Positions 5,536-32,978 of a stretch of DNA of 41,990 nucleotides are shown here, one piece after another. The notes beneath the pieces were generated by a model. It was given only the letters and a program-made list of their open reading frames with translations. It did no database searches and was not told where the DNA came from. The DNA comes from an uncultured Bacteroidales bacterium. GTDB taxonomy: Bacteria; Bacteroidota; Bacteroidia; Bacteroidales; Paludibacteraceae. Where the stretch lies: positions 1 through 41,990 of the forward strand of contig CACWZZ010000016.1 of NCBI GenBank assembly GCA_902765485.1, read 5' to 3'. Numbering within the stretch: the first letter of the stretch is position 1; each line of letters begins with the position of its first letter. Position numbers and translations under genes: made by a program.

Positions 5536-6400
5536 ACAACTCGCGACCTGTAGCGTCAAAGATACGCTCGCCGCGAACGATACGCAGCTGACCGTCAATG
5601 ATCACCTTGTGCGCTTTCTCGCTCACCTCGGTGTTCTCAATCGCTTGGCTGCCGCTATAGTGATAAGCGTCGTATGTCGCTTTATCCACGCGCTCCAGCT
5701 GGATATGATCTTTGAACTTCGCGCTGCGGATGATGATATAGTTCACACCCTCAGGAATAGCCCATTTCTGGCAAGGACTCCAACCGTTCGCCCAGTCCAT
5801 CGTCACAGTACTATTCTCGATCGTCGTCTGCGTTCTGGAATAATAGAAATTGCCCTTGTGATCCTTCACGGCGATATAGCTACCCATCTGGCAGTCAATC
5901 GTCAACTTACCATCGACAAACAGCATATTGTCGTCATACGTATCATACGCCGCCTCGCCGTTGTCTGCTCCGTTGATCCAACCGATGGCATAGTAGTTCA
6001 CATCGTCCTCATCTACATCGTCCAAACTACTGATATCAATACCTTCGCCGCAGTCCGTTCCGGCACCGATATAGAGTTCGTCTGCCTGATATTTGAGCTT
6101 GATGTAGAAATCATAGCATCCGCTGACGGTAGCTTTGTAGATATCTCCTTCGCGAGTAATACCGGCTACCGAAGCAGGATTCAGGTCCACCACCCATACC
6201 GCACGGTTTTCTGCGTCGCAGAGTTGCAACTGGTCACCGCTGGCTACCTTCACATGCGCCAGATACTGCTGAAAACCCTCAAACTCGTCCACTTTTGTGC
6301 CCGGATAATAAACTTTTCCGTTCACCAATACCCCATAACTCTGGGCAAACAGCCCTGCTGCACATACCAGCGCAGCCATTAACATAAAAATCTTTTTCAT
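5534..6400 (-). CDS. Secreted non-catalytic protein, probably carbohydrate-binding
   Basis: A 288-aa protein with a signal peptide (MKKIFMLMAALVCAAGLFAQ). Residues 20-112 closely match residues 20-112 of the 618-aa amylase encoded next (shared blocks GVLVNGK/GILVNGK, DEFEGF, QYLAHV, GDQLQL, SGCYDFYIKLKY, ADELYIG). A second beta-rich module, about 130-245, contains AIGWINGADNG and aromatic residues of the sort seen in starch-binding modules. No glycoside-hydrolase barrel or acidic triad is present. The C-terminus (KVIIDGQLRIVRGERIFDATGREL, split here as KVIIDGQLRIV and FDATGREL) carries the cluster's shared tag. I infer a stand-alone glucan-binding helper made by duplicating the amylase N-terminal module. 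Confidence 0.7.
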   Translation of the reverse strand: MKKIFMLMAALVCAAGLFAQSYGVLVNGKVYYPGTKVDEFEGFQQYLAHVKVASGDQLQLCDAENRAVWVVDLNPASVAGITREGDIYKATVSGCYDFYIKLKYQADELYIGAGTDCGEGIDISSLDDVDEDDVNYYAIGWINGADNGEAAYDTYDDNMLFVDGKLTIDCQMGSYIAVKDHKGNFYYSRTQTTIENSTVTMDWANGWSPCQKWAIPEGVNYIIIRSAKFKDHIQLERVDKATYDAYHYSGSQAIENTEVSEKAHKVIIDGQLRIVRGERIFDATGREL

Positions 6401-6438
6401 GATTATTTTAGTTTAGTTTTAGTTTATATCTATCCTTT

Positions 6439-6470
6439 CTCTCCCCTTGAGGGGGAGCCGGAGGGGGTTA
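6439..6470. repeat. G-rich dispersed repeat, copy 1
   Basis: ctctccccttgagggggag plus a gagggggtta tail. 30 of 32 positions match 8421-8452. Its first half is an inverted repeat (CTCCCC/GGGGAG). This copy supplies the TAA stop codon of the 618-aa amylase. Confidence 0.8.
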
Positions 6471-8324
6471 CTTTACTCTCCGTCCGAATGCGTCGAACAC
6501 TTGTTCGCCCACTTGGATGAACAACTGACCGTCGCGGAGCACTTTCTCTCCTCTGACGGCTGACGGCTGAGAACTGACTTCTTCTATTCCCTGCGTCAGG
6601 TCTTTACGCTCGGTGTTCTTGTCCCCGCGCGCGCTATTCATCTTATAATAGACGCCATAACCGTTACCCTTCACAGCCAGCGTGTAGCCACTCGGTGTGC
6701 TGTTATAACCCGAATTCGGACCCAGCAACAGACGGATCTCACCATTCGTTCCGGTGATCGTAGCTTTATAGAAACCGTCGCCGGCTTCGTCGCTCACGGC
6801 GCTCTCGCTATGAACACCTGCTTTGTAACGGGCATTGATCATTTTCTTAATCGTCTCTTTGTACGTCACCCAGTGCGGCCAGAACACACACGGCACACCC
6901 GGCATACTCAGAATATAAGCATTCGCTTGCAGCAGCTTGTCCTTGCAAAGACCCATCGAATTGCCATTTCCGCAGAACTCATTGCCATTATCGCGCTGGA
7001 AGGAATCGTGACTGTCGATGAACGTAACGGCATAGCGGGACTTACCTGCTCCCGGCAGACCGGCACCTTTCAGTTTCCAATAGTTATCTGCCGCAATACC
7101 GTCATTGAATGCCGTATATTTGGTCGCGAAATCAAAGGTCGCAGTATTCCATCCTGCATCATTCAAACGGTCCTGCAAGGTGTTCACATTGCCATCCCAG
7201 TACTCCATGACGCTGAAATAAGCCTCTGCCGCTTTGTTATATTCGTTGATATGGCTGTTATGATAACCCTTGCAGTAGTCATAGCGGAAGCCATCTACTT
7301 TGACCACATTGCGCATCCATTTCAGGTATGCCTTGAACATATTGCGCACGTTCTCATTCGTGTGATCCCAGTCGCGAGAAGCAGCATAATTCGCCTCGTC
7401 GCCATAACCGTCATCGGCGTTACCTGTCGCAAAACCCACACACTCTGCCGGAGCACCCGATGCAGGATTATTCACCTCGTCCGTCCGGCAGATATAACTT
7501 CCGTCCGGTACAAACTTACCGTACGTTCCGAAATTATAACCGCTTGCGTAACCACACCAGCCGCTCTTCGCATCGCCGTGGTTGATCACGATATCAGCAA
7601 TCACACGACCGCCGTTCTTATGAATAATTTCAATCATCTGCGTCAGTTTTTCCTTCGTGCCACGGTCGCTGCTCAATGAACTGTAATCCGATGGGTGATA
7701 ACCCAAGCCGCTTCCGGCACTCATCGGCGGAAACCAGATCATATCAAACCATTGACCGATCTCCTCTGCCGACGATCCGTTATTGCCGTTCAGGAAATCA
7801 ATCCATTTGGTTCGGCCAAACCCGTTTCCGCCACCTTCACCCGCTTTTCCTTCCATGCTGTTCCAATAGAACGCTTGCAACATCACATCCGGACATTTAG
7901 CCGGAACAGAACCGCCGTAACCCGGATTAGGTTGCTCTCCCTTGCTGATATCTACGCCCTCACCGCAAGCGACCCCTGCCCCGGCAGGACCGATATACAA
8001 CTCATCCGCGCCGTATTTGAGTTTGATATAGAAATCATAGCAGCCACTGACGGTAGCGTTGTAGTGGTCGCCGTCACGGGTGAAACCTTCTACAGAATAG
8101 GTGTTCAGATCCACCGCCCAAGCTGCTTTGTTGTCATAATCGTACAGCTGCAACTGGTCGCCGTTCGATACCTGCACATGAGCTAAATACTGCACAAAAC
8201 CCTCAAACTCATCGGTCATCGAGCCTTGGTAGTACATCTTACCGTTAACTAAAATTCCATAGCTCTGCGCCCATCCAATCATACTGCAGAGCAAGGCTGC
8301 TAAAATCAATCCTGTTTTTTTCAT
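6468..8324 (-). CDS. Secreted GH13 alpha-amylase with N-terminal module
   Basis: A 618-aa alpha-amylase. A signal peptide (residues 1-19, ending GWAQ) is followed by a module (20-115) shared with the 288-aa neighbour, a short Gly/Pro linker, and the GH13 barrel from about 143 (CPDVMLQAFYWNSMEG). Conserved regions: IADIVINHG (243-250), VDGFRYDY with nucleophile D349, SVMEYWDG with acid/base E374, and FIDSHDSF with D440. The triad is intact and YHPSDY fits calcium/A-B domain architecture of ordinary alpha-amylases. The C-terminal beta domain ends in the shared tag (KVLRDGQLFIQVG, FDAFGRRVK). The coding sequence just before the tag contains a duplicated GACGGCT word near 6550. It would cut internal alpha-1,4 bonds of starch outside the cytoplasm. 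Confidence 0.93.
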   Translation of the reverse strand: MKKTGLILAALLCSMIGWAQSYGILVNGKMYYQGSMTDEFEGFVQYLAHVQVSNGDQLQLYDYDNKAAWAVDLNTYSVEGFTRDGDHYNATVSGCYDFYIKLKYGADELYIGPAGAGVACGEGVDISKGEQPNPGYGGSVPAKCPDVMLQAFYWNSMEGKAGEGGGNGFGRTKWIDFLNGNNGSSAEEIGQWFDMIWFPPMSAGSGLGYHPSDYSSLSSDRGTKEKLTQMIEIIHKNGGRVIADIVINHGDAKSGWCGYASGYNFGTYGKFVPDGSYICRTDEVNNPASGAPAECVGFATGNADDGYGDEANYAASRDWDHTNENVRNMFKAYLKWMRNVVKVDGFRYDYCKGYHNSHINEYNKAAEAYFSVMEYWDGNVNTLQDRLNDAGWNTATFDFATKYTAFNDGIAADNYWKLKGAGLPGAGKSRYAVTFIDSHDSFQRDNGNEFCGNGNSMGLCKDKLLQANAYILSMPGVPCVFWPHWVTYKETIKKMINARYKAGVHSESAVSDEAGDGFYKATITGTNGEIRLLLGPNSGYNSTPSGYTLAVKGNGYGVYYKMNSARGDKNTERKDLTQGIEEVSSQPSAVRGEKVLRDGQLFIQVGEQVFDAFGRRVK

Positions 8325-9920: not shown

Positions 9921-10772
9921 TCATATTTTACTAACTTGGCACACGACCACTACGGAATTTGAATTTACTCGAAACGTCACCCGCCACCCGGCATAATCCA
10001 TCTTATACTCCCGCTCCGGGTCATTCTGATACCCGGGACGCGGATCCTGACGCAAAATATAATCAATCTCAGTCATTTTTCCTCTCAAAAGGGGGTGATA
10101 AGGGGGTGATAAGGGGGTGATTAGGGGGTGATTAGGGGGTGATTCGTATGACGCAAAGCCATCAATAACAGAACTTTCATTCGCCACAAGAGACCAATCG
10201 ACCTCCAATTCTCGGTCCTTTGTCTCCTCCGCAAAACCATTTCGCGCATCGGGATGACTGTCGCTGAAACTCAGATAAGGCTTAATATCATATATCGGCG
10301 TCCCGTCCAGCACATCCGCCCCGCTCACAATCAACTCCATCCTGCCTTCCTTCTTTCCTGCATCACCCTGGAACTTCGATATATCGGTATGTCGATTTGT
10401 TGATTTATCGGGATACACTACCTTAACCAACTTCACGCTACTCAATCCTAACGGATTGGGTCGAAACGGACTCCGCGTCGAAAAAACACCCATCCGCTTG
10501 TTCCCTCCCAAACGCGGCGGACGAACCGTCGGAGACCATTCTTTCGTACTTGGTTCTTTGTCACTTGGCACTTTGTCACTTGGCACTTCCGAGAATCCCC
10601 ATATCAGCCATAAATGGCTGTAACCCTCTATGCCTCTCAACGCTTCGCGCACATTATAATCCGGCTCAAACACAATCCGCGTCAAGATCGGACTTTCCTC
10701 TCTGCTCTGACGCGGAATACCGAACTTGTCCGTGTGCCCGTTACGGGCGATGGCAATCACTTTTAGCTCCAT
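9921..10772 (-). CDS. trmO: tRNA (adenine-37-N6)-methyltransferase TrmO family (TsaA/YaeB), with three repeat-derived inserts
   Basis: A 283-aa member of the TrmO/YaeB family, which uses SAM to N6-methylate t6A37 of tRNA-Thr. Family blocks are clear: FGIPRQS, VREALRGIEGYSHLWLIWGF, TVRPPRLGGNKRMGVFSTRS, PFRPNPLGLSSVKL, LDGTPIYDIKPYL, and the C-terminal TEIDYILRQDPRPGYQ. E. coli TrmO is about 235 aa; the extra length here comes from three stretches of short-period DNA repeats: VPSDKVPSDKEPSTK (nt 10549-10590), the DKSTNRHTDIS segment (10382-10413), and the PPNHPLITPLSPPYHPLL segment (10091-10144). All keep the reading frame and fall between conserved blocks, in likely surface loops. Two tRNA-Thr genes lie in this window, though no regulatory link is implied. 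Confidence 0.88.
   Translation of the reverse strand: MELKVIAIARNGHTDKFGIPRQSREESPILTRIVFEPDYNVREALRGIEGYSHLWLIWGFSEVPSDKVPSDKEPSTKEWSPTVRPPRLGGNKRMGVFSTRSPFRPNPLGLSSVKLVKVVYPDKSTNRHTDISKFQGDAGKKEGRMELIVSGADVLDGTPIYDIKPYLSFSDSHPDARNGFAEETKDRELEVDWSLVANESSVIDGFASYESPPNHPLITPLSPPYHPLLRGKMTEIDYILRQDPRPGYQNDPEREYKMDYAGWRVTFRVNSNSVVVVCQVSKI
10091..10144. repeat. Five 11-bp tandem units inside trmO
   Basis: Plus-strand units gggggtgataa (two), then gggggtgatta (two) and a final partial unit. Because 11 is not a multiple of 3, the units are read in rotating frames, giving the Pro/Leu/His-rich segment near the TrmO C-terminus. Confidence 0.9.
10382..10413. repeat. 8-bp tandem tract inside trmO
   Basis: Words tatcggta, tgtcgatt, tgttgatt, tatcggga follow each other at 8-bp spacing and are translated between two conserved TrmO blocks. 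Confidence 0.65.
10549..10590. repeat. 15-bp tandem units inside trmO
   Basis: Units cttggttctttgtca, cttggcactttgtca and a partial cttggcacttcc. The 15-bp period encodes the pentapeptide repeat VPSDK/VPSDK/EPSTK. Confidence 0.9.
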
Positions 10773-20666: not shown

Positions 20667-20677
20667 TCCGGTTCACA

Positions 20678-20721
20678 CCTAGGTGATACCTAGGTTATAC
20701 CCAGGTTATACCTAGGTTATT
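20678..20721. repeat. Four 11-bp tandem units between glmM and lpxB
   Basis: CCTAGGTGATA, CCTAGGTTATA, CCCAGGTTATA, CCTAGGTTATT in strict 11-bp phase, starting 12 nt after the glmM stop and ending 4 nt before the lpxB start. CCTAGG is itself palindromic. Confidence 0.95.
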
Positions 20722-20725
20722 TAGC

Positions 20726-29582: not shown

Positions 29583-29624
29583 TTTCTTATTTTCTTATTT
29601 TCTCATTTTCTTATTTTCTCATTT
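29581..29624. repeat. 8-bp tandem tract between lolA and trxB
   Basis: attttctt (two), attttctc, attttctt, attttctc and a partial unit span exactly from the trxB start codon to the lolA stop codon. Confidence 0.92.
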
Positions 29625-30192
29625 AGAAGCGCATATCGTTCACAAACGTATTTTTGCTTGGTTTCAATACAAAGATCTCCTCGGGTGTTGTTGCGACGAA
29701 CTTCGGCTCTTTCATCTTCAGGGTCGAGATCTTCTTTCCTTCCTTGATCTCCGCCGACAGCGGCATCAGGTCGCTGTTTCGCACGCGGAGAGTGAAGCGG
29801 TTGATGCCGACAGTCTGATCCTTGGGTGTCAGGGTGACGATCGTCTCTTTTCCATCCGCAGAAGCGCGTTCGGTGATGTTACAAACCGGTATAAGCGCCT
29901 TCGCGTAGAGGAACGGGTTTGCCTCCAGCAGTTCTTGGTCGGTCGGGTTGGAGAGCGTCAGTTCGTCGGTCTCGCCGGAGTACATGTACATCGTTTTGCC
30001 GTCGTACGCCGCTTCTATATCCATCATTTCCAGACGAAAGTTCCGACCGTGCATAATGATCTCTCCGGGGAAATTCATCGGCGCGTTCACTTCTTCCGCT
30101 ACCGTGACCGTGAATGCCGACTGCAGCGTCTTCTCCTCCAAGTTCGCCAGAAAGGACGAAAGGATGGTTAATATCATTAATACGTGTTGCAT
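29623..30192 (-). CDS. lolA: LolA-like outer-membrane lipoprotein carrier
   Basis: A 189-aa periplasmic protein with a short N-terminal signal (MQHVLMILTILSSFLA). The pattern of amphipathic strands fits the LolA half-barrel: FTVTVAEE, FPGEIIMHGRNFRLEM, AAYDGKTMYMYSGETDELTLSNPT, and a late FTLRVRNSDLMPLSAEI. The order ftsK-lolA-trxB is common in Bacteroidales and supports the call. It would carry lipoproteins from the inner to the outer membrane. Confidence 0.85.
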   Translation of the reverse strand: MQHVLMILTILSSFLANLEEKTLQSAFTVTVAEEVNAPMNFPGEIIMHGRNFRLEMMDIEAAYDGKTMYMYSGETDELTLSNPTDQELLEANPFLYAKALIPVCNITERASADGKETIVTLTPKDQTVGINRFTLRVRNSDLMPLSAEIKEGKKISTLKMKEPKFVATTPEEIFVLKPSKNTFVNDMRF

Positions 30193-30209
30193 GTTGCTTT
30201 ATTTTTCCT

Positions 30210-30396
30210 ATTGTTCTGCCGTTATTCTCCCGTTGTTCTCCCGACGTCGTCGGCTTCCGATTACGTGTCGTTTACGTCTCGTTTACGTGTCGTTTACGTG
30301 TTTGACAGCAGGTTTACTGCATTTTTGGAGCAGGTTTACTGCATTTTTTGGGCAGGTTATTTGCTATTTTGCGGCTACTTGCTATTTTGCGGCTAC
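30210..30396. repeat. 11-bp phased repeat array filling the ftsK-lolA gap
   Basis: Cutting the plus strand from 30210 into 11-mers gives attgttctgcc, gttattctccc, gttgttctccc, gacgtcgtcgg, cttccgattac, gtgtcgtttac, gtctcgtttac, gtgtcgtttac, gtgtttgacag, caggtttactg, catttttggag, caggtttactg, cattttttggg, caggttatttg. The word changes stepwise but the phase is kept for about 155 bp; an 18-bp duplication (ttgctattttgcggctac) then runs into the ftsK stop codon. Confidence 0.95.
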
Positions 30397-32942
30397 TTGA
30401 CGCCCAGTTCCTCCAGCAGTTTCTCGAGGGCATCCATGTCTTGGATGAGGACATCGCGTCCCTTCGGTCCTTTGTTCGGTCCGACGATGCCGGCAGCTTC
30501 GAGTTGGTCGGAGAGTTTACCGGCGCGGTTATAACCGATCTCGAAAGCACGTTGCAGGCGGCTGGTGGAACCTTCCTGTTTGGCGACCACGTATCGCGCC
30601 ACGTCTGCGAACATCGGATCCAAGCGTTTCATATCCACGGATCCCGGTGCGAGCGCTTCTCCTTCGCCTCCTTCGCCCACATATTCCGGCAACTGATACG
30701 GTTCGGTATAGCGCTGTTGCTTGGAGATATGTTTGACGATTTCGTCCACTTCGGGCGTGTCCACAAAGGCACATTGCACACGGGTGATAGAAGCATTTCC
30801 GGCATAGAGCGAGTCTCCGCGTCCGATGAGCTGTTCGGCTCCTTTCGCATCGAGCACGGTTCGCGAGTCGATGACCGATTGTGTGCGCAGAGCTATACGG
30901 GTCGGAATGTTCGCTTTGATGACACCGGTGACGATGTTGACGGACGGACGCTGGGTAGCGAGTATCATGTGCATACCGACGGCACGCGCCTTCTGGGTGA
31001 TACGCGCAATCGGCGTCTCGACCTGTTTGCCCGCCTGCATGATAAAATCGCCGTACTCATCGATGATGATGACGATATATGGCAGGTATTGGTGGTGAAG
31101 ACTATCAGCCACTAACTTATTGGGATTCAGTCTTCTGCGGACGAACTTGTCGTTATAATCCTCCAAGTTGCGCACGCCGGCATCCATCAGCAGTTTGTAC
31201 CGGTTCTCCATCTCGATTACCAATGAGTTGAGGGTGTTGACGACCTTGTCGCAGTCGGTAATGACGATCTGCTCGGGATCGGTGTCCGGCATCGCCGCGA
31301 GGAAATGCTTGATGAGCGGTTTGTAGGGCGCGAACTCCACCATTTTCGGGTCCACCATGACGAGTTTGAGCTCCGCCGGGTGCTTCTTGTAAAGAAGCGA
31401 AGTGATGATGGCGTTGATGGCAACCGATTTACCTGTTCCGGTAGCACCCGCGACGAGCAAGTGCGGCGTTTTGGCGAGGTCGAACATGAAGACTTCGTTG
31501 GTGATCGTTCGTCCATAAGCGATCGGCAGCCGCATCTTCGTTTCCTCTTGGAAACGCTTGGAGGCGATGACGGAGTGCATCGAGACGGTCTGCGGTTTCT
31601 CGTTCGGGACTTCTATACCGATTGTTCCCTTGCCGGGCATCGGGGCGATGATACGGATTCCTGTCGCAGAAAGGCTCATCATAATATCGTTCTCGAGCGC
31701 CTGTACTTTCGCCACGCGGATACCTGCTTTCGGCACTATTTCATAGAGCGTCACGGTCGGTCCGACCGTTGCTTTGATACTATCAATTTCTATGCCATAG
31801 TTGCGGAGCGTGGTGACGATCCGTGCTCCGTTGGCGCGTTGTTCGTTCTCGTCGATAAGCGGCGCCGATTCGTTGTCATAGACTTTCAGGAGGTTGAGAC
31901 TGGGGAACTTGTAGAACTCCAGATCCTTGCGCGGGTCGTACGGACCGAGTTTCTCCAGCAGTTTGTCGGGATCCTTGGTGTACAGTTCATCTTCCGGGAT
32001 ATCTTCTATCTCCAGCTCCGGAGATTCCGGAGTTTCCAGGATTTCCGGGATTTCAGGTTCTTCGGGCTTCTCGGGTTCTTCGGGCTCTTCGGGATCTTTC
32101 GGTTCTTCGGGTTTGTCGATATTCTCAATTGTGAAAGTCACCTCATCCTCCTTGGGTTCGTCTTTGGGTTCGTCTTTCTTCTCTTCCTCAACGTCAATCG
32201 GGATGTCGATGGTCACTTCCTCGTCCGTTTTTTCCTCCTCTTCTTGCGGGGTTGGAGCGGGCTTCTCTTTCTTTTTGAAGAGTGTTTTACACCATTCGCC
32301 GAAAGCTTTGCATTTATCGATAAAACGCCGGTCGCTGACGATAAGGAAAATGACCATTGCCGCAGCCAGAATCAGGGCTGTTCCTATTTCGTTGACGTAG
32401 CTGACCATCCATCGCGCGGACGCTTCTCCGAACGCTCCACCCCAGAGGAACACGCCCATCTTATGCACCATGTTATGCGCAAAACCGAGTGTTACCGATC
32501 CCCAGAGGACAAGGAACGTGCCGCAGAGGAAGATTTTCAACGCCGGAATATCCCGCAACACATGCATGATCCGCAGCGCGTACGCGCCGAGCATACCGAT
32601 CAGCAAGATGGACATGAAACCGAAACTGCCGTCAATGAGGAACTGAGCCAACTCCGCTCCGGGCAAGCCCAATAGATTTCTGATCGCTTCGCGATTAGCG
32701 ATTCGTTCGGGTCGGGACATAGAGAGAACCGACTGGTCGGACGGACCGGTAAAGAGGTAACTGACATAAGCGAGGAGCGCGATTACCGCGAAGGTCAGCA
32801 GCAGAATGCCGCATATCATTCGCGTCTCTCTCGCCATCATAAAATGCTTCACCGTTTCCCAGACGTTCGGTTTCTCCACCTTGATGGCGCGAGGGGACGG
32901 ATCCGCAGAGGTATTCGATACTTTAGATGATGTTCGGGGCAT
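30393..32942 (-). CDS. ftsK: DNA translocase FtsK/SpoIIIE
   Basis: An 849-aa septal DNA pump that clears chromosomes from the closing septum and activates Xer recombination. Four membrane helices lie at about 42-62, 108-128, 137-155 and 185-202. A charged, Pro/Glu-rich linker (about 226-320, repeated PEEP units) follows. The RecA-like motor has Walker A GATGTGKS (about 499-506), MVDPKMVEF, and Walker B IIIDEYGDF. The C-terminal gamma winged helix (SRLQRAFEIGYNRAGKLSDQ) recognises polar DNA motifs. The start at 32942 (MPRTSSK) is chosen because the in-frame extension would begin inside the promoter. It would act with the Xer recombinase encoded at 695-1639. Confidence 0.96.
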   Translation of the reverse strand: MPRTSSKVSNTSADPSPRAIKVEKPNVWETVKHFMMARETRMICGILLLTFAVIALLAYVSYLFTGPSDQSVLSMSRPERIANREAIRNLLGLPGAELAQFLIDGSFGFMSILLIGMLGAYALRIMHVLRDIPALKIFLCGTFLVLWGSVTLGFAHNMVHKMGVFLWGGAFGEASARWMVSYVNEIGTALILAAAMVIFLIVSDRRFIDKCKAFGEWCKTLFKKKEKPAPTPQEEEEKTDEEVTIDIPIDVEEEKKDEPKDEPKEDEVTFTIENIDKPEEPKDPEEPEEPEKPEEPEIPEILETPESPELEIEDIPEDELYTKDPDKLLEKLGPYDPRKDLEFYKFPSLNLLKVYDNESAPLIDENEQRANGARIVTTLRNYGIEIDSIKATVGPTVTLYEIVPKAGIRVAKVQALENDIMMSLSATGIRIIAPMPGKGTIGIEVPNEKPQTVSMHSVIASKRFQEETKMRLPIAYGRTITNEVFMFDLAKTPHLLVAGATGTGKSVAINAIITSLLYKKHPAELKLVMVDPKMVEFAPYKPLIKHFLAAMPDTDPEQIVITDCDKVVNTLNSLVIEMENRYKLLMDAGVRNLEDYNDKFVRRRLNPNKLVADSLHHQYLPYIVIIIDEYGDFIMQAGKQVETPIARITQKARAVGMHMILATQRPSVNIVTGVIKANIPTRIALRTQSVIDSRTVLDAKGAEQLIGRGDSLYAGNASITRVQCAFVDTPEVDEIVKHISKQQRYTEPYQLPEYVGEGGEGEALAPGSVDMKRLDPMFADVARYVVAKQEGSTSRLQRAFEIGYNRAGKLSDQLEAAGIVGPNKGPKGRDVLIQDMDALEKLLEELGVK

Positions 32943-32960
32943 AATATCCAAATTTAGCAC

Positions 32961-32969
32961 GCAAAGGTA
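32961..32969 (-). promoter_or_regulatory. -7 box of the ftsK promoter
   Basis: TACCTTTGC on the minus strand, about 20 nt upstream of the ftsK ATG. The place where TTTG should lie (20 nt further up) reads CTTT and is inside a GGTGAAA repeat tract. Confidence 0.7.
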
Positions 32970-32978
32970 CAAAAAAAA

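Follow-up and report, generated by a model that had tools for sequence, protein, structure and literature searches.

What fills the gap between ftsK and lolA in this uncultured Bacteroidales genome, and why should its sequence repeat at about one helical turn of DNA? Within the window (the whole 41,990-nucleotide stretch that was analysed), the initial annotation had described positions 30210 to 30396 as a continuous array of 11-bp words without a phase slip. Autocorrelation bore out the phasing (0.57 against 0.29 in shuffles): identity at lag 11 was 0.568 (shuffle mean, 0.294; sd, 0.032; z, 8.6), a value reached by 0/1000 dinucleotide shuffles across lags 1 to 40. Identity was also raised at lag 22 (0.533; z, 7.1; 0/1000 shuffles) and weakly at lag 33 (17/1000 shuffles), while the remaining three of the six highest lags (3, 21, and 25) were not raised against shuffles. 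TRF, run independently, called four blocks, two with a unit of 11 bp (30214-30243 and 30261-30301), one of 22 bp (30307-30358), and one of 18 bp (30361-30399). The strict register extends over 14 to 15 units, starting at about 30210/30221 and ending at about 30374, and the claim of unbroken phase held over that span; one slip occurs at the last repeat, TTGCTATTTTGCGGCTAC (30361-30399, period 18), where the register breaks before the ftsK stop codon, which itself sits within that repeat. The sorting of the 11-mers into families likewise needs one exception, since two middle units (30243-30264, GACGTCGTCGG CTTCCGATTAC) keep register yet resemble no neighbour. Both genes are on the minus strand, placing the tract downstream of ftsK and upstream of lolA. 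A terminator, promoter, or structured RNA was set aside for the tract, which has no consensus site and a fold z of −0.83 against shuffles; region 30193-30400 had no inverted repeat of at least 8 bp, and Rfam at gathering score returned four tRNAs only for the whole window.

Features of the window that bear on the 11-bp arrays
Feature	Positions	Strand	Evidence
trmO with in-frame array	9921..10772	-	Pfam TrmO_N E 5.8e-37, TrmO_C E 5.6e-8
Second 11-bp family, word AATCACCCCCT, 5 copies, in frame within trmO	10090..10144	-	14 places in own genome
Third 11-bp family, word ACCTAGGTTAT, 4 copies	20677..20720	+	4 places in own genome
lolA (LolA_2, slightly below Pfam cut-off)	29623..30192	-	PF16584 E 1.1e-5, 25.8 bits vs cut-off 26.8
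ftsK-lolA gap filled by 11-bp phased array	30193..30392	-	lag-11 identity 0.561, z 8.3, 0/1000 shuffles; TRF
Dispersed core: suffix units (CGGGAGAACAA type), GACGTCGTCGG segment, word array ACGTAAACGA[CG]	30225..30311	-	own-genome search
Word ACACGTAAACG (minus strand), 3.7 copies	30261..30301	-	TRF score 75
22-bp unit (two 11-mers), one copy more than L052, L103, L033	30307..30358	-	TRF, alignment
18-bp repeat breaking 11-bp phase, holds ftsK stop codon	30361..30399	-	TRF 2.2 copies, 100% match
ftsK	30393..32972	-	Pfam FtsK_SpoIIIE E 2.2e-53, FtsK_gamma E 1.9e-22

The same gap was present in two loci whose FtsK was 95 and 97% identical to that of the window (L052 and L103, FtsK search) and in a congener, G059 (L033). 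Sister sequences had been expected to differ by repeat units, and they do, in steps of 11 and 22 bp, with a single 18-bp step besides: in alignment, the window had an additional 22 bp (CCAAAAATGCAGTAAACCTGCT) and an additional 18 bp relative to L103 and L033, and L052 lacked one 11-mer (CAGAACAATAG) and carried one extra CCGCAAAATAG. Across 80 loci, the ftsK-lolA gap was measurable in 65, of which 29 were under 34 bp. The best lag (at least 0.73) of the other 36 gaps was 11 in 10, 8 in 4, 7 in 3, and 14 in 1; the remaining 18 had no clear lag, several of them with a diverged 11-phased stretch (by eye). The words in this gap vary from genome to genome.

A search of the genome for other 11-bp phased sites was productive. 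The core of word 1 (ACGTAAACGAC) lies at 8 places of the 2.1-Mb own genome, the tract included (own-genome search), and this dispersal rules out a private microsatellite. The seven other places matched the whole core or part of it at 77 to 98% identity; L008 (27 bp) matched word-1 suffix units only. A pattern search of the same genome gave 24 matches for word 1 and 1 for the reversed pattern. Within the genus, a 301-bp query matched 22 of 61 genomes (own included), with the array itself matched in 18 and the match confined to the ftsK end of the query in 4. Several word-1 copies have common prefix and suffix units, themselves 11-phased (by eye). Two further families in the window, AATCACCCCCT (13 places fetched plus the window's own) and ACCTAGGTTAT, are also dispersed, with shared flanks; the ACCTAGGTTAT array occupies most of the gap between two open reading frames (20667-20725). 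Repeated 11-bp slippage with mutation, one of two origins initially proposed for the tract, accounts for the unit-step length changes in sisters but is not the whole story, because close copies of the core stand at unrelated loci and in-frame copies stand in conserved genes. As side observations, L002 1400-1620 seems to be a segmental copy of L003 1450-1760 in another setting (by eye), the shared piece comprising the end of a sugar transferase gene, the array, and part of a small downstream gene; and most AATCACCCCCT copies (L326-L338) are followed by TTTTGAGAGGAAAAA, many then by AAAGGTG-type 7-bp repeats, so that the AATCACCCCCT array seems to travel together with a 7-bp array.

Three of the seven other word-1 places in the own genome are in frame within rnr, valS, and aroC. 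Taken over all loci, in-frame word-1 arrays were found in rnr (L005, L211), valS (L006, L222, L214), aroC (L007, L223, L210), mreC (L037, L226), a pseudouridine synthase gene (L233), and an Amidase_3 gene (L236), named by Pfam except for L214, L222, and L223, which were named from their place in the valS and aroC searches. In trmO, the AATCACCCCCT array accounts for part of the coding sequence that separates TrmO_N (residues 18-171) from TrmO_C (residues 236-270). Word 1 holds TAA, and with an 11-bp period 33 bp are enough to bring it into all three frames. A scripted count over 13 coding arrays (several orthologous) found TAA changed, to GAA, TTA, ATA, or GTA, in 16/16 units in which it would fall in frame and in 1/43 of the others. 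The first fraction is demanded by the choice of open frames and only the second is free; 1/43 shows that the change is nearly confined to units where it was needed. Spanning frames on the opposite strand are doubtful, since the reversed word is free of stops in all frames, and the peptide TRKRDVNDTET simply follows from the word. In L213 (213-2102), one 630-codon frame joins EPSP synthase and glycosyltransferase matches across a word-1 array, which may reflect two genes fused through the array or an artefact of assembly.

The arrays are linked to a gene for a small protein. Approached from the protein, 27/32 small-gene loci in the genus (homologous genes, not independent) had an upstream array (lag-11 identity of at least 0.70 over 33 bp, within 250 bp), against 13/390 control open reading frames drawn by a simple open-frame rule, wrong starts included (Fisher p, 7e-28). 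Over lags 4 to 20, the 32 loci had no array at any lag but 11 (0/32 at 7 bp). The five exceptions were L158 (array 286 bp upstream), L165 (a weaker 11-phased stretch, 0.61), L140 (seemingly interrupted by other sequence, by eye), L164 (a fragment), and L134 (array downstream only). The 28 callable upstream neighbours of the small gene formed 22 groups (some neighbour frames may be spurious), so the gene-array pair sits in many places. Of 81 control loci, two hold family members: L111, with a weak 11-phased stretch upstream (0.64), and L082, with none. The L111 member (6242-6568, minus strand) lies near ftsK and has upstream a CAGACTAACGAGACAC-type array, a type found in other genomes in the ftsK-lolA gap.

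Approached from the arrays (profile A1), each window family had exactly one examined copy upstream of a small-protein gene: 1/8 copies of word 1 (L004, a member of A1), 1/14 of AATCACCCCCT (L338; E, 1.6e-6; 256 bp), and 1/4 of ACCTAGGTTAT (L324; E, 5e-6), the latter two proteins lying outside A1. The A1 search for the AATCACCCCCT and ACCTAGGTTAT loci covered 2452 open reading frames. Chance would give 0.013, 0.004, and 0.008 copies for the three window families, figures that assume a 250-bp limit and 8 genes and for which L338, at 256 bp, is just beyond the limit. A further word, word 2, has a single copy in the own genome, at a family gene, and no solo copy; four words in this genome have a gene copy. 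A gene-linked copy in each of the three families suggests an undescribed partnership of a protein with the repeats that it reads.

In other genomes, gene-linked copies numbered 1/12 in G049 and 1/15 fetched in G033 (15 sites; 25 rows). None of the 15 listed word-2 arrays of G050 was at a family gene, and the word-1 loci examined for G007 (5), G029 (4), G001 (3), and G059 (7) had no linked family gene. The link in trans is therefore imperfect, some genomes having arrays without a linked gene. Among 66 small-protein matches (E up to about 8e-7), arrays of words 1 and 2 nearby were upstream in 25 cases and downstream in 0. The count drew on 62 word-1 places, with matches to the ftsK end and some repeat rows for the same array left out, and on the word-2 rows listed, less those of G033 and repeat rows for the same array. 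Hand counts of dispersal versus linked gene over the matches listed gave 5/9 versus 9/52 for word 1 (p, 0.024) and 8/13 versus 16/48 for word 2 (p, 0.065), a weak association across genomes that we do not use as main evidence. CG was present in 27/27 arrays tallied for motif, in an alignment anchored on CG and with some loci fetched by array; the AATCACCCCCT and ACCTAGGTTAT words are without CG. Set against letter shuffles, CG occurred in 37/51 words of 11/22 bp (26.2 in shuffles), 14/26 of 8/16 bp (6.7), and 16/68 of 7/14 bp (10.9), and the excess is thus also present in 8-bp words.

Our reading is that the tract is probably a solo copy from a gene-plus-repeat system, whose small protein would bind its own helically phased word and whose arrays would be mobile. 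The elements of the system are a small protein family, an 11-bp array upstream of most of its genes in the genus, and scattered arrays of the same word; with them go phasing, dispersal, in-frame copies, gene linkage, unit-wise length change, and near-uniform words at a shared site. The second origin offered in the initial annotation, DNA serving as a scaffold that a protein would bind on one face, gains from the partner gene family, with binding still putative. Mechanistically, the small protein may bind its word at about one protomer per helical turn, along one DNA face, and may regulate its own gene. Solo arrays would be spread copies, kept where they are tolerated, in short intergenic gaps and protein loops, and their length could change in whole units through ordinary slippage or unequal exchange. 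When a lineage changes its word, arrays at old sites would be rewritten to the new word, either by inter-array conversion or by selection for a match with the protein. A REP-transposase-like gene beside some copies is a candidate for copying arrays to new places.

The small protein is 97 to about 190 amino acids long, with the pattern M-A-K..SGK..R.GK, and its search gave matches in 42/61 genus genomes at E 0.001. Models of two members (AlphaFold; pLDDT, 81.5 and 85.5) predict an N-terminal beta-hairpin followed by helices. The invariant residues include no obvious catalytic set, which makes a candidate binding role likelier than an enzymatic one. The L004 member matched no Pfam family at E 0.001, ten outgroup members had only weak, unrelated Pfam matches, and none of these eleven had an NCBIfam match near a cut-off. 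A known fold was rejected, as Foldseek of the two models against the PDB returned nothing at E 0.001 or better; the first model had a few short MazE/AbrB-like matches (E above 3), absent from the best 50 of the second. One model searched against viral structures also gave nothing at E 0.001 or better. A phage or plasmid origin was set aside: one outgroup member had no tblastn match in plasmids or phages, the L004 member had none in phages, and PHROGs gave weak single-member matches only (best E, 0.011).

Could the arrays instead be plain short tandem repeats, the outcome of a slippage habit with preferred units of 7, 8, and 11 bp, with the gene link accidental or a result of the small genes' position in hypervariable spacers? 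A bacterial preference for 7-nt units is reported from earlier work in MacGregor 2015. At the control open reading frames, 7-, 8-, and 11-bp arrays coexist at the 0.70 threshold (49, 14, and 13 of 390, respectively), lags 9, 10, 12, and 13 give none, and a general slippage habit would yield such arrays without any protein. Unit lengths upstream of open reading frames (L052-L131 and the window) look quantised. The same habit fits the 7-bp repeats that valS and aroC loops hold in some other genomes (by eye) and the whole-unit differences between sister gaps. Slippage, however, cannot copy one word with its flanks to unrelated loci, and it leaves unexplained both the contrast of 27/32 with 13/390, with 0/32 at 7 bp, and the finding that all three window families have a single copy at a family gene. 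We consider this account unlikely.

Mobile repeats of the REP/RAYT kind, moved by a divergent REP-associated tyrosine transposase with the small protein as accessory or passenger, make a similarly doubtful alternative. A motif search found a protein with an HUH-type motif near 6/32 small-gene loci (L132, L139, L141, L148, L150, and L156), five of which were also recovered by neighbour clustering. The copy at L004 matched NCBIfam REP_Tyr_transpos (E, 9e-4; 22 residues; 19.1 bits versus a cut-off of 80), and a further own-genome copy, L136, adjoins a short 11-bp array; the other copy, L137/L138, is without one. The other 26/32 loci, each spanning about 1.5 kb each way, had no HUH motif, which tells against a RAYT as constant partner, and the defining palindrome is missing, as seen from the inverted-repeat search and fold score of the tract. 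Word-1 copies such as L001-L003 have a 5-bp stem, CCGAC..GTCGG (by eye). Separately, L135-L138 hold divergent REP-associated transposase-like genes with an HUH-type motif, and one of these copies is recorded as two matches in C18 that fall in a single open frame, close to whose end lie 39-bp repeats.

At two fixed sites, the ftsK-lolA gap and valS, words differ by species and are nearly uniform within an array. Eleven-bp arrays were present in 7 of the 21 readable valS loci, with five words (by eye); regular expressions made 21/30 valS and 8/30 aroC loci readable and missed the rest. The array-bearing valS loop has 59 residues in six of the seven and 58 in one, and loops without arrays also reach 59 residues (L263, L265). 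Some other valS and aroC loops hold 7-bp repeats (by eye). Units of one valS array were 0.92 identical to each other, whereas units at matching positions in different genomes were 0.77 identical (five genomes, with G059, the same as G000, and the diverged G055 left out); slippage alone could suffice for this homogenisation. It is possible rather than probable that this is a new kind of gene-repeat partnership, with an unnamed Bacteroidales protein family whose members each read an 11-bp word of their own along one helical face, spread arrays of it through the genome (in stop-avoiding form also into loops of core proteins), and shift those arrays to a new word along with their specificity, so that one site (valS, ftsK-lolA) differs by species.

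Homologues of the small protein extend beyond the genus, in that the family profile matched 14/393 genomes of the order, 11 of them outside the genus. Upstream lag-11 identity was at least 0.67 at 5/13 outgroup homologues from three families (L169, L176, L179, L185, and L187; L186 was dropped for want of a usable frame), with period 10 fitting L169 equally well. Two others (L174, L175) had 7-bp arrays, and the remaining ones were without a clear array. At a threshold of 0.70, the count was 4/13 versus 1/10 control open reading frames from the same loci, which is not significant alone; at 0.64, the ten controls had one lag-11 and two lag-7 arrays. Upstream 11-bp arrays at outgroup homologues are accordingly suggestive. 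In L185, the units combine ATAAACG with letters that vary (by eye), an arrangement that resembles a conserved core held at constant spacing more than a recent duplication.

The L185 pattern, and the recurrence of arrays with different words at the same positions in several genomes, would also suit arrays selected first as sites for a nucleoid or regulatory protein, recurring where they function and not where they are tolerated. The orientation of 42 intergenic arrays, for the most part that of their flanking genes (21 same/same, 6 opposite/opposite, 12 mixed, and 3 with one flank missing), points the same way. This is the least probable of the accounts considered here and very unlikely: 29/65 measurable ftsK-lolA gaps, at under 34 bp, are too short for three units, the same sites also carry 7- or 8-bp repeats, and the coding copies look like tolerated loops.

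The preferred reading, a solo copy of a gene-plus-repeat system, recalls several known systems in part. In REP/RAYT systems (REPtrons), one gene has a cognate repeat and many solo copies, and gene and repeat co-vary between lineages. The arrays share the gene with its cognate repeat and the many solo copies; they differ in being 11-bp direct repeats without a palindrome, with a small partner without an HUH motif and with in-frame copies. Boxes bound by MraZ have a 10-bp spacing. MraZ is described as controlling its own gene by binding repeated boxes that precede it (PMC8475190); repeats stand upstream of the small gene here too, and autoregulation is putative, but the protein has no MraZ/AbrB family match and no fold match, and the arrays are dispersed. 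In ParMRC, ParR of R1 is reported to need at least two 11-bp parC repeats, and the direct repeats of R1 and pB171 are about one helical turn long, with a sequence that differs by protein family (PMC9426499). A small protein family and direct repeats of about one helical turn are common to both; the present protein has no ribbon-helix-helix match (two models, PDB), the arrays are chromosomal and scattered over many loci, and no ParM was noticed among the gene neighbours listed.

Rickettsia palindromic elements, with relatives in Wolbachia, are described as short DNA in frame in housekeeping genes at tolerated positions (PMC10969869, PMC2996958). The in-frame insertions in rnr, valS, aroC, mreC, pseudouridine synthase, Amidase_3, and trmO genes resemble them; those elements are palindromic, about 150 bp long, and code a conserved peptide, whereas the arrays are tandem, 11-bp based, and variable in length, with a partner gene and changing words. 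Intergenic heptamer repeats (TAACTGA) and long simple sequence repeats are reported as tandem short units between genes, in some Bacteroidetes too (PMC4679880). Long simple sequence repeats and STRR share the head-to-tail short units and mostly intergenic position, but the pattern of local origin with unrelated words at each locus does not hold here, the same word with its flanks standing at 8, 14, and 4 places of one genome. Heptamer repeats differ further in that the unit here is 11 bp, with several words per genome, gene-linked copies, and in-frame coding copies. Unlike CRISPR, the units are contiguous, with no unique spacers. Among the titles and abstract openings listed in searches of the open-licence literature, none described Bacteroidales arrays of 11 bp with a linked small protein. 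Since each known kind fails at least one tested defining feature, we regard the whole as categorically new, with its function putative.

If the preferred reading is true, the arrays would form a new class of dispersed repeats, distinct from palindromic elements and from private microsatellites, for which a partner protein has been proposed. They would carry a built-in record of changing DNA specificity, each word and its adjacent protein being a matched pair testable by binding assays, and would account for the 11-bp phased gaps and for the inserts that stand in frame in gut Bacteroidales core proteins. With homologues outside the genus in 11/393 order genomes, cultured Bacteroidales may serve as a test bed. 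Two minor observations concern the coding loci: aroC of G035 (L287) has a chorismate synthase match with one internal TAG, and trmO in the window holds a second repeat (10539-10588) with a 15-bp unit, coding a PSDK/PSTK-type run.
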